Shown one piece after another: positions 17,923-54,784 of a stretch of DNA of 64,000 nucleotides (positions are counted from its first letter, which is position 1; every line of letters starts with the position of its first letter). Where the stretch lies: contig NZ_ADKM02000085.1 in assembly GCF_000178155.2 (NCBI RefSeq), forward strand, positions 62,001 through 126,000, written 5' to 3'. Origin of the DNA: Hominimerdicola alba 8. Lineage in GTDB: Bacteria > Bacillota > Clostridia > Oscillospirales > Ruminococcaceae. The translations under genes and the position numbers were made by a program. The notes below the pieces were generated by a model, which saw only the letters and a list, made by a program, of their open reading frames with translations, did not search any database and was not told the origin of the DNA.

Positions 17923-18315
17923 TTACTTACAGTCATCACATATCACAAGTATCTCGATATCTCCGTCAGTCCCCATAGAGCCGTGATCATTCAGCTCGTT
18001 GATCATCTCACGACAGACTTCTTCATCTATCTGCTGTACTTTGCCGCATATCCTGCACCGCACGATCACCCTGCCTTTTTTGTCATCTGACAAGCGGTAT
18101 TGATATTCGCGATTGCGGTTGATATCACGCTTTGCGATACCGCTTTTCACAAGGTTGCCCATGATACGGTAGACGGTGCTCTCAGGCAGAGATATACCTG
18201 TGCTGCTGTCAGCACGTATACCCGCTATCATCTCTTTAACGGTAAATGCCTGACCCATATTTGTTTTAAGAAAAGATAGTATGACAGTCCTCTGCATTGT
18301 ATTGTAAGTTGCCAT
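17923..18315 (-). CDS. Fur-family metalloregulator, Zur-like
   Basis: A 130-residue Fur-family repressor. The winged helix includes STVYRIMGNLVKSGIAKR (recognition helix), and two CXXC pairs (CRIC and CDDC at the C-terminus) should hold structural zinc. The usual HHHH-type motif before the first CXXC is replaced by KKGRVIVRC, so the regulatory metal site is atypical. The start at 18315 has an AAGGTGAT site; an upstream ATG at 18357 would overlap the operator. It heads the zinc cluster and is probably autoregulated through the palindrome at 18339-18360. Confidence 0.88.
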   Translation of the reverse strand: MATYNTMQRTVILSFLKTNMGQAFTVKEMIAGIRADSSTGISLPESTVYRIMGNLVKSGIAKRDINRNREYQYRLSDDKKGRVIVRCRICGKVQQIDEEVCREMINELNDHGSMGTDGDIEILVICDDCK

Positions 18316-18338
18316 TATATCACCTTCGATCATCTGAG

Positions 18339-18360
18339 ATTTGAAAGTAACTATCATTTT
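18339..18360. promoter_or_regulatory. Putative Zur/Fur box 1, overlapping the transcription start
   Basis: ATTTGAAAGTAACTATCATT plus two T form an imperfect palindrome (TGATAGT-T-ACTTTCA on the - strand). It begins 9 bp downstream of the -10 element, an expected repressor position. A sister site is at 18429-18450. Confidence 0.65.
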
Positions 18361-52939: not shown

Positions 52940-52968
52940 TTGACATCGGGGAAAACTTATGTTAAAAT
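52940..52968 (+). promoter_or_regulatory. Promoter of the DUF2325-DUF3793 unit
   Basis: TTGACA (52940-52945) and TAAAAT (52963-52968), 17 bp apart. The same hexamers and spacing occur at feoA (54055-54083). Confidence 0.8.
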
Positions 52969-52974
52969 ATATAT

Positions 52975-52992
52975 AGTTAGTAAATACTAACT
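52975..52992. promoter_or_regulatory. Palindromic operator 1 (DtxR/IdeR-like box)
   Basis: AGTTAG-TAAATA-CTAACT, a perfect outer palindrome beginning 6 bp after the -10 element. It resembles the TTAGGTTAG/CTAACCTAA-type boxes of DtxR-family regulators. Confidence 0.7.
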
Positions 52993-53031
52993 GATTTGCG
53001 CGGACTTTGTGCCGCTTTATATATTAGCATA

Positions 53032-53051
53032 TGGTTAGTTAGTTCTAACCA
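53032..53051. promoter_or_regulatory. Palindromic operator 2 (DtxR/IdeR-like box)
   Basis: TGGTTAG-TTAGTT-CTAACCA, a perfect 7-bp inverted repeat with 6-bp spacer, in the leader 33 bp before the DUF2325 start. Confidence 0.7.
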
Positions 53052-53083
53052 GACCGTATCGTTTAAAAGAAATGAGGTATAAT

Positions 53084-53395
53084 ATGAGTGTGGTCATCAT
53101 AGGCGGCAACGACCGAATGAGTACCAGATATAAGGAAATATGCAAGTCTTTCGATGTTAAGGCTAAGGTGTTTATAAAGTATGCCACCGATCTTGACAAA
53201 AAAATAGGATCTCCGGATTTTGCAGTGGTGTTCACTGACACAGTATCGCACAAAATGCTGAACAGCTTGAACGCAAGGGCTGAAAAGCTGAATTTCCCTG
53301 TAGAACTTTGTCACAGTTCAAGCGTATCGGCGTTGAAAAAGGTGCTGTGCAAGTATTGCGGCGGTAATTGTGAAAAGTGTAGATTGGCTCAGTAA
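53084..53395 (+). CDS. DUF2325 protein with a cysteine-rich tail
   Basis: A 103-residue protein beginning MSVVIIGGNDRMSTRYKEIC, the DUF2325 Rossmann-like core, with VVFTDTVSHKM in the second half. The last 20 residues contain four Cys (CKYCGGNCEKC), a possible metal or Fe-S ligand set. ATG 53084 follows GAGGT; an in-frame ATG at 53072 lies inside that site. It sits behind two operator-like palindromes and 14 bases before the DUF3793 gene, so an iron-linked role is inferred from context. Confidence 0.85.
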   Translation: MSVVIIGGNDRMSTRYKEICKSFDVKAKVFIKYATDLDKKIGSPDFAVVFTDTVSHKMLNSLNARAEKLNFPVELCHSSSVSALKKVLCKYCGGNCEKCRLAQ

Positions 53396-53409
53396 CAGGC
53401 GGTGATAAT

Positions 53410-53976
53410 ATGTCTGAAACCAAAGAATTTGAGCGTGAACTTGCTCTGCATACTGCACCTGCCATGTTGGGCGCAAAGCCTGCCAATCTTCTGACGATGG
53501 AGGGCAATAGCCGTACCATTAGCGAAAATGTTGCCAGGTTCAACAAAAAGGCTGCGCAGAAAGGTCTGCACATAAAGGAATTGCGCAGGATAGGCAACAG
53601 GACACTGATGCTACTCTACAACGAGCGGCTGCTGAATAAGCGCTTGTGTGAAGAAGAGGTGCGTAAGATGTTTTGCGGCTTCGGCTACGGGGCTTGCAAA
53701 GATTGCCCGCAGTATCTCGAAAAACTGTGCGACCGCATGGATGAAAGTGGAGATTTTCCGCATGAGATAGGTCTTTTTCTGGGCTACCCTGTGGGTGACA
53801 TCAAGGGCTTTATCGCCAATAAAGGGCAGAATTGTCTGCTCTGCGGCTACTGGAAAGTCTACAGCGATGCAGAGGGTGCGCGCAGGACTTTCAAAAGATA
53901 CAACAACTGCACAAAGTATATGGTCGATTGTCTGGCGCATGGTAAGGATATCTACAGTGCGCTTAGGATAAGCTGA
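53410..53976 (+). CDS. DUF3793 protein
   Basis: A 188-residue cytoplasmic protein: FERELALHTAPAMLGAKPAN at the N-terminus, then NRTLMLLYNERLLNKRL, a Cys segment (CGFGYGACKDCPQYLEKLC), FPHEIGLFLGYPVGDIKGFI and NCLLCGYWKVYSD. The Cys-rich segments could bind metal. The family often occurs near iron or flavodoxin genes in gut Clostridia (from memory, not searched). AGGCGGTGA precedes ATG 53410. Confidence 0.88.
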   Translation: MSETKEFERELALHTAPAMLGAKPANLLTMEGNSRTISENVARFNKKAAQKGLHIKELRRIGNRTLMLLYNERLLNKRLCEEEVRKMFCGFGYGACKDCPQYLEKLCDRMDESGDFPHEIGLFLGYPVGDIKGFIANKGQNCLLCGYWKVYSDAEGARRTFKRYNNCTKYMVDCLAHGKDIYSALRIS

Positions 53977-54001
53977 AATTGTACAAAATGGTTATTTGAT
54001 A

Positions 54002-54028
54002 CTAACTTTAGTTTGTTAAAACTAACGA
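54002..54028. promoter_or_regulatory. Degenerate operator-like site upstream of feoA
   Basis: TTAG-N10-CTAA with additional CTAAC and GTTA half-sites. It resembles the neighbouring boxes but has a longer spacer, so it may be a weak or relic site. Confidence 0.35.
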
Positions 54029-54054
54029 AATATTTCAAAGGAACCGAAAATCGG

Positions 54055-54083
54055 TTGACAAAAGGCTTTTTAGCTGATAAAAT
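54055..54083 (+). promoter_or_regulatory. Promoter of feoA and the DtxR-like gene
   Basis: TTGACA (54055-54060) and TAAAAT (54078-54083), 17 bp apart, the same arrangement as at 52940. Confidence 0.8.
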
Positions 54084-54088
54084 ATTAT

Positions 54089-54108
54089 AGGTTAGAATTG
54101 TCTAACCT
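54089..54108. promoter_or_regulatory. Palindromic operator 3 (DtxR/IdeR-like box)
   Basis: AGGTTAG-AATTGT-CTAACCT, a perfect 7-bp inverted repeat 5 bp after the -10 element, the best match in the window to a classical IdeR/DtxR box. Confidence 0.75.
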
Positions 54109-54138
54109 TTCAGTCCATAGCAAAGGGAGGAAAAAAAC

Positions 54139-54348
54139 ATGCCCCTGACGCTCGCAGCAGCAGGAGAAACAAATATCATAAAGGGAATAGACGGTACAGC
54201 TGAAACCAAGAGATTTCTTGAAAATCTAGGATTCAAAGAGGGTTGCAGCGTGACCGTGATAAACAGTATGTGCGGCAGCCTGATAGTGGGTCTGCACGAG
54301 GATATGGTGGCGGTATCGCAGGATATGGCAGCGCGTATAATCGTATAA
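54139..54348 (+). CDS. feoA: FeoA-family protein
   Basis: A 69-residue SH3-like protein: ETKRFLENLGFKEGCSVTVI, GSLIVGLHEDMVAVSQDMAA then RIIV. FeoA supports the FeoB ferrous iron permease. No feoB is present in the window, so it may serve a distant FeoB. GGGAGG precedes ATG 54139, and it directly follows promoter and operator 3. Confidence 0.9.
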   Translation: MPLTLAAAGETNIIKGIDGTAETKRFLENLGFKEGCSVTVINSMCGSLIVGLHEDMVAVSQDMAARIIV

Positions 54349-54376
54349 ATATTAAGATAGTTCGGAGGAAAGTATC

Positions 54377-54748
54377 TTGCTGACCAAGTCACAGAAAAAG
54401 TATCTGTTTGCTATCTATCTTCTGGGTCAGGACGGCGGTTCGGTGAAATCCACCTCAGTGTCGGATTTCCTGAACGTTTCAAAGGCAAGCACTGTTAAAA
54501 TGACCCAGAAACTTATAGAAGAACAGTACATAATCAAAGAGCCGTATCGTGAGATAAGGCTGACACAAAAAGGCATACGTGAGGCGAACAAGCTGTTCAC
54601 ACCGAGCGTGATATTGCAGAATTTTCTCATAGCAACGGTAGGCGTGCCTTCCGACAAAGCCCGCGAAGCAAGTGTGATAATTGCTTCGGAACTTGATGAG
54701 GAAACTCTCGATAAGCTGGTGAAATACAGTCTTTCTCTTGCCAAATAA
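54377..54748 (+). CDS. DtxR/MntR-like regulator lacking canonical metal ligands
   Basis: A 123-residue protein with the winged-helix of the iron-dependent repressor family (TSVSDFLNVSKASTVKMTQK, then YREIRLTQKGIREA). The dimerisation region is present but lacks the usual ligands: the MntR-type Asp8/Glu11 positions are KKYLF, the RHELLEQF-like His is absent (FTPSVILQNFL), and the EH ligands are replaced by SELDE. No third SH3 domain follows. The start is TTG 54377 with GGAGG 8 bases upstream. It follows feoA by 28 bases and probably acts on the three boxes nearby. Confidence 0.82.
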   Translation: MLTKSQKKYLFAIYLLGQDGGSVKSTSVSDFLNVSKASTVKMTQKLIEEQYIIKEPYREIRLTQKGIREANKLFTPSVILQNFLIATVGVPSDKAREASVIIASELDEETLDKLVKYSLSLAK

Positions 54749-54755
54749 CACCCTG

Positions 54756-54784
54756 AAAAGTCCCGCTTTAGGCGGGATTTTTCA
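54756..54784 (+). terminator. Terminator of the feoA unit
   Basis: AAGTCCCGC and GCGGGATTT with a short loop followed by TTTTT. Confidence 0.88.

Follow-up and report, generated by a model that had tools for sequence, protein, structure and literature searches.

Two units of a putative dispersed DtxR-type iron regulon in Hominimerdicola alba 8, one encoding a DtxR-fold protein without metal ligands

In a 64,000-nucleotide stretch of the Hominimerdicola alba 8 genome (the window; contig C52, bases 62001-126000, in a draft assembly of 4.05 Mb), a short cluster encodes a DUF2325 protein, a DUF3793 protein, a stand-alone FeoA-domain protein and a DtxR-fold protein, here called W. We consider it probable that this cluster comprises two units of a dispersed iron regulon that is run by a second DtxR-type protein, encoded on contig C2, outside the window (the C2 protein), with W as a metal-blind paralogue. 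Judging from the sequence comparisons described below, the C2 protein rather than W most likely reads the iron signal.

The cluster is organized as two transcription units (Table 1). In the first, a promoter is followed by two palindromes, DUF2325 and DUF3793, while in the second, two degenerate palindromes precede a promoter, a further palindrome, feoA and W. No feoB gene is found beside this feoA. The promoters share identical hexamers and a 17-bp spacing (TTGACA-17-TAAAAT), a combination that the window contains exactly twice on its plus strand, at 52940 and at 54055, and never on its minus strand. The three perfect palindromes reported by the first-pass annotation (operators 1, 2 and 5) were confirmed at all their coordinates, as were the promoters, and each of the three contains GTTAG-N6-CTAAC. 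The promoter-proximal palindromes, described there as lying 5-6 bp behind each promoter, begin 6 bp (promoter 1) and 5 bp (promoter 2) past the -10 hexamers; at this distance they would cover the transcription start, a position typical of a repressor site. Additional to these three, the degenerate sites at 53991 and 54011 precede feoA. Their 20-bp spacing recurs in the related loci L185 and L186; furthermore, counterparts of operator 4 lie 80 bp ahead of an exact site in L185, L186 and L187, and operator 5 has counterparts in all three loci.

Several counts indicate that the palindrome is more than a chance arrangement. Within the window, GTTAG-N6-CTAAC with at most one mismatch occurs at five sites against 1.36 expected, a number reached in none of 100 shuffles, and all five fall within a 1.1-kb cluster (52976-54106). 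Across the whole genome, 19 exact sites were identified, compared with none for a reversed-pattern control; with one mismatch allowed, the numbers are 61 and 27. The sharpest result is the spacer scan from N3 to N9, in which 19 sites were found at N6, one at N4 and none at N3, N5, N7, N8 or N9 (reversed control, 3). Aligned, the genome sites read R-GTTAG-N6-CTAAC-Y. The outer G/C pair is conserved, and an inner G occurs in only 8% of the 38 half-sites (19 sites, both strands). The bare TTAG-N6-CTAA pattern was rejected as evidence within the window, given that three copies were found against 0.93 expected and 7 of 100 shuffles reached three. The first-pass annotation had named a lack of enrichment elsewhere as an outcome that would speak against its operators; the palindrome is instead enriched genome-wide (19 versus 0), with several copies before iron genes. 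Its description of the regulon as compact was not borne out, as the 19 exact sites are dispersed on 11 contigs.

Table 1. Positions of the cluster features, and of a Fur-family gene elsewhere, in window coordinates.
Feature	Coordinates	Strand	Remarks
Fur-family regulator	17923..18357	-	144 aa
Promoter 1, TTGACA-N17-TAAAAT	52940..52968	+	pattern scan
Operator 1, AGTTAGTAAATACTAACT	52975..52992		arms 8 bp, 2-bp centre; directly after -10 box
Operator 2, TGGTTAGTTAGTTCTAACCA	53032..53051		arms 7 bp, 6-bp centre; in the interval from promoter 1 to DUF2325
DUF2325 protein (PF10087)	53084..53395	+	104.9 bits, cut-off 33.6
DUF3793 protein (PF12672)	53410..53976	+	183.2 bits, cut-off 25.1
Degenerate operator 3, GTTATTTGATACTAAC	53991..54006		one mismatch; mismatch-tolerant scan
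Degenerate operator 4, GTTTGTTAAAACTAAC	54011..54026		one mismatch; mismatch-tolerant scan
Promoter 2, TTGACA-N17-TAAAAT	54055..54083	+	pattern scan
Operator 5, AGGTTAGAATTGTCTAACCT	54089..54108		arms 8 bp, 4-bp centre
feoA, stand-alone FeoA-domain protein	54139..54348	+	69 aa; FeoA Pfam 47.3 bits
W, DtxR-fold protein	54377..54748	+	123 aa, TTG start; Fe_dep_repress 43.6 bits, cut-off 26
Intrinsic-terminator-like hairpin and T run	54756..54784	+	cluster end; by eye

Genes around the 16 exact sites outside the window were called with a simple script. These sites adjoin genes for a flavodoxin, a 2Fe-2S thioredoxin-like protein, a flavin mononucleotide (FMN)-binding protein, a thioesterase followed by a nonribosomal peptide synthetase (NRPS), a methyltransferase, a Shr-like heme-interacting protein, a ZIP transporter and several ATP-binding cassette (ABC) transporters. 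Additionally, an exact site lies next to a FeoA with FeoB elsewhere in the genome, and the gene for an FTR1 iron permease is accompanied by two one-mismatch sites. For the exact site at C87:103159, the script gave no adjacent gene start. The iron regulon with DtxR-type operators suggested by the first-pass annotation is supported by genome-wide sites, several of them before iron genes, and iron as the signal is read from the identity of those genes.

Two observations concern individual neighbours of these sites. The Shr-like heme/haemoglobin-interacting domain of a 967-aa protein (L041:2286-5189, contig C75 of the same genome, minus strand) is combined with a dockerin domain, and an exact site lies about 40 bp upstream of the gene; this protein possibly serves in iron-regulated heme capture docked on a cellulosome-like scaffold. 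Furthermore, TetR-like genes (a label read from sequence except in L036) were observed beside iron sites and ABC transporter or Feo genes in L038, L043, L044, L019 and L050 of the same genome, suggesting that several iron-linked systems may have local regulators.

The named relatives of W belong to Ruminococcus species (many assemblies from ruminants) and R. albus strains. Among loci chosen for holding W, a site within one mismatch was found upstream of DUF2325 in 13 of 13 cases, of DUF3793 in 20 of 25 and of window-type feoA in 33 of 34, compared with 14 of 324 other open reading frames (ORFs) that are 200 aa or longer. The counts cover genes lying 350 bp or more from an edge, and they leave out L203 and L211, whose contigs equal those of L146 and L147 in length. 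This recurrence of sites ties DUF2325 and DUF3793 to the iron regulon, as had been proposed from the window. The full order is seen in G111 (L147), where a site, DUF2325, a second site, DUF3793, flavodoxin, sites, two feoA genes, sites, feoB and W follow one another. The window corresponds to a cluster of this type minus flavodoxin, the second feoA and feoB. This short form is common to the window and L185-L187, with the same site spacing in L185 and L186, and L188 has a cluster that lacks feoA as well. DUF3793 proteins also share an invariant PHE-x-G-x-FL-x-YP-x2-D stretch (window gene at 53410-53976), and on their C-terminal side a near-invariant cysteine (24/25) is accompanied by other common cysteines (21/25 and 17/25). 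These conserved residues hint at a metal or cofactor site.

A neighbourhood survey covered 40 loci, 20 holding W and 20 holding ligand-bearing DtxR-type genes, the latter being mostly best-scoring matches and not a random draw; several loci in both sets are cut by contig ends. Within about 6 kb, feo or DUF3793-flavodoxin genes were present in 17 of the 20 W loci (feo in 14, DUF3793 together with flavodoxin in 6, and both in 3 of them) versus 7 of the 20 ligand-bearing loci. In 8 of the 40 loci (L148, L150, L160, L166, L168, L169, L170 and L178), the ligand-bearing type is divergent from feoA, and an exact site lies between the two genes or at the feoA start.

The genome encodes two DtxR-type proteins that score above the family cut-off, W and the C2 protein, and contains one weak hit. 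W possesses the winged helix PF01325 above its cut-off (Table 1), while the metal-binding/dimerisation domain PF02742 scores 23.5 bits, under the cut-off of 27 though with an E-value of 5.8e-5. Its predicted fold is that of MntR/DtxR (mean predicted local distance difference test score, pLDDT, 93.1; 1on2 at E 2.7e-7; 8pw0 with a template modelling score of 0.80). However, none of the six metal ligands is present: where MntR has Asp8, Glu11, His77, Glu99, Glu102 and His103, W carries K, F, S, V, A and S, respectively. The absence is characteristic of a whole group. In a table of 71 proteins (duplicates and proteins below 45 bits left out; D, M, N or E; E; H; C or E; E; and H allowed at the six positions), 18 proteins have none of the ligands, 53 have all six and none is intermediate. 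A branch with support 100/97 sets the 18 apart from the rest, in a tree from a short alignment with some long branches. Three further W loci also show 0/6, and the same holds for all 29 unbroken W scoring more than 50 bits in a set of 31 loci from named organisms, partly the same genes as in the 71-protein set (L214 is broken in frame into two pieces, and L215, at 38 bits, falls under the limit). At the Asp8 position, Lys or Arg occupies all 18 and all 29 of these proteins.

Without a metal site, W cannot be an iron sensor by the known mechanism. Its conservation is greater in the DNA-binding half, and by eye its recognition helix is similar to that of the ligand-bearing type, so W appears to be a metal-blind paralogue that has retained a DtxR fold and a DNA-reading helix of similar type. 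As a gene of the regulon, W would be expected to be expressed mostly at low iron. The role that we prefer for W, tentatively and with the odds still somewhat against it, is that of a metal-blind modulator of the same operators. By extension, and at the same tentative level, the ligand-free clade may act as the metal-blind partner of the true sensor at these operators, as a heterodimer, a competitor or a locked binder. Perhaps the stand-alone FeoA acts with W, in a split version of the layout that joins DtxR and FeoA domains. The W of the window contains no cysteine. As a separate observation, several W proteins outside its subgroup (L058, L060, L061, L062 and L070) have either Cys-X-Cys or, where MntR has His103, a cysteine; such residues could form a redox or iron-sulfur site.

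The C2 protein (124 aa; PF01325 at 41.2 bits, over the cut-off) fills all six ligand positions with N, E, H, C, E and H. At DtxR positions 102, 105, 106 and 79 it has C, E, H and H, and at position 10 it has N, not M. Its best PDB sequence match is DtxR; among NCBIfam models those for MntR score best, below the cut-off. A one-mismatch site lies about 100 bp upstream of its gene.

The density of sites tracks the presence of a match to the C2 protein. Among 119 genomes of the window's family, the 105 with a match (E 1e-5 or better) contain 2.11 sites/Mb against 0.68 for the control, and the 14 with no match contain 0.38 against 0.94 (Mann-Whitney p 6e-7, which overstates the evidence, as do the other p values given here, because the genomes are related). 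The same trend was observed in 239 genomes of the class outside the family, a set from which four genomes belonging to the family were left out: 1.61 versus 0.72 sites/Mb in the 130 genomes with a match of E 1e-25 or better, 0.49 versus 0.92 in the 56 with a weaker match, and 0.38 versus 0.79 in the 53 with none (strong versus none, p 2e-13). W was confirmed in at least 18 family genomes, or at least 21 with further loci. All 18 of those in the 71-protein set have a C2-protein match elsewhere at E 2.5e-26 or better. The 87 family genomes with a C2-protein match and no confirmed W still contain 1.92 sites/Mb, against a control of 0.72. In G065, a genome of the same genus with 11 sites (control 2), a C2-protein match of 131.5 bits was found by sequence, its ligands unread, and a W-type profile found only this C2-matching gene and no W. 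The proposal of the first-pass annotation that the regulator adjoining feoA reads these operators in a metal-dependent way is not supported, since W lacks all six ligands and the density of sites follows the C2-protein matches.

Beyond the relatedness of the genomes, several points weigh against a regulon run by the C2 protein. Its presence means a sequence match, with ligands read in 53 proteins and a few more. Two genomes with no match, G203 and G330, contain 11 and 5 sites (control 1 in each). Conversely, exact sites are missing from 9 of the 105 family genomes that do have a match (G011, G015, G030, G038, G070, G079, G088, G095 and G098), among which G088 has W. Site numbers are somewhat higher in genomes with W (2.9 versus 1.9 per Mb, p 0.04), which suggests that W may be a second binder of these sites. 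The C2 protein has a mixed ligand set, and the similar set of PgMntR goes with manganese, so iron is deduced from the genes and not from the ligands. In the same W-chosen loci, only 1 of 20 flavodoxin genes, 19 of 46 W genes and 0 of 2 ZIP genes have an upstream site; flavodoxin usually comes after DUF3793 there. In the genome itself, the association with iron genes comes from a listing of neighbours. This listing includes several exact sites at genes with no evident iron role, namely enolase, three proteins with no Pfam match (one with a weak NifU-like match), a MacB/FtsX transporter, a methyltransferase and TetR neighbours. A second FeoA-FeoB-like gene (783 aa, C48) is preceded solely by two-mismatch sites.

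From these data we infer the following scheme. At high iron, a metal-loaded dimer of the C2 protein would bind GTTAG-N6-CTAAC over the presumed transcription starts and block both promoters of the window. At low iron, it would leave the operators, and DUF2325-DUF3793 and feoA-W would be expressed, as would the Feo, flavodoxin, heme and siderophore-type genes at other places in the genome. W, produced under these conditions, may then compete or pair with the true sensor at the same operators.

The operators and proteins can be compared with known systems. In work on IdeR, the target proposed for a single dimer is TTAGGNNNNCCTAA, which corresponds to TTAG-N6-CTAA (PMC8464063). The window palindromes share this geometry with the DtxR/IdeR operators of Actinobacteria, which suggests an operator built like that of DtxR and potentially bound by the C2 protein. 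The winged helix, the C-E-H ligands of the C2 protein and the iron-acquisition genes beside the sites are further likenesses. However, the inner G and C of TTAGG...CCTAA are not conserved here, whereas the outer G/C pair is; the hosts are the Ruminococcus family and its class; and the C2 protein, at 124 aa, should have no SH3 domain, unlike DtxR/IdeR. Among solved structures, MntR of Bacillus subtilis and its kin come nearest to W in both sequence and fold and agree with it in two-domain length, but W differs at every one of their metal ligands, as listed above. PgMntR of Porphyromonas gingivalis is described as a DtxR-type protein with two fused FeoA domains, a mixed ligand set and manganese control, with some DNA binding in the absence of metal (PMC4805248). 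On that description, it resembles the present system in the tie between DtxR-type protein and FeoA and in the mixed metal site, as in the C2 protein, and differs in that FeoA is a separate gene here and W has no metal site.

The main rival explanation concerns the role of W. FeoC is a winged-helix protein, and W could be its analogue, a small winged-helix accessory of Feo and not a modulator of operators, which we regard as rather unlikely. W is small and in relatives often encoded directly after feoB on the same strand (e.g. L146, L147, L151, L153, L156, L160 and L161), though not in the window, and the C-terminal part of several W contains Cys-X-Cys or one Cys. According to a Feo survey, FeoC too sits downstream of feoAB and is unevenly distributed, and Firmicutes have another small Cys-rich protein (PMC8749426). 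Against the analogy, W is of DtxR type and no FeoC appeared among its Pfam hits up to E 1. W also persists in the absence of feoB: the window and L185-L187 keep it with DUF2325-DUF3793-feoA, L188 lacks feoA too, and DUF3793-flavodoxin is its neighbour, with no feo in view, in L154 and in L152, a locus truncated by the contig end. The missing cysteine in the window protein and the better conservation of the DNA-binding half likewise speak against the FeoC analogy.

The remaining alternatives concern the reader and its signal. A manganese regulon of the MntR kind, which we find improbable, would agree with the MntR models that score best for the C2 protein, albeit below cut-off, with its PgMntR-like mixed ligands and with the site at the ZIP transporter, ZIP being the one kind of Mn transporter covered; however, the sites adjoin flavodoxin, Shr-like heme, FTR1, NRPS and Feo genes, and among PDB sequences the C2 protein matches DtxR best. 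That W itself is the main metal-dependent reader, through a metal site invisible by comparison with MntR/DtxR, is very unlikely. The neighbourhoods of W (17 of 20 loci with feo or DUF3793-flavodoxin, most with sites), its recognition helix as judged by eye and the slightly higher number of sites in W genomes are in its favour, whereas it is contradicted by the 0/6 ligands with Lys/Arg at the Asp8 position throughout both sets, by the excess of sites in the 87 genomes with a C2-protein match and no confirmed W, and by the sites of G065, where no W was found. Least probable of all, and judged extremely unlikely, is control by a Fur-family protein. The genome does encode two such proteins, one of them in the window (Table 1), but the gene for the other adjoins a ZnuA-family gene, which suggests zinc, and the palindrome has DtxR geometry and an abundance that follows the DtxR-type protein.

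Apart from this cluster, a dispersed repeat with the 24-mer GTTATCCCGCTGACACACCACAAA was observed at four positions in the window (11159, 49821, 57870 and 59304), with seven further copies in 317 kb from other stretches of the same genome. Short ORFs listed over this repeat are probably false.

In the openly licensed PMC literature, at least five papers mention DUF2325 or DUF3793. Among the entries listed there (titles and abstract openings; subscription journals, RegPrecise and other databases were outside the scope), we found neither this motif in these bacteria, nor a link between DUF3793 and iron, nor ligand-free DtxR proteins in feo clusters. For the Ruminococcus family and much of its class, the regulon read by the C2 protein would supply an iron-control operator that can be tested. 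It would also tie two poorly characterized families, DUF2325 and DUF3793, to iron limitation together with flavodoxin. Calling the local gene W a metal-dependent regulator would probably be wrong, and its ligand-free clade raises the question of what role a metalloregulator that lacks a metal site may play when it is kept beside an iron transporter.

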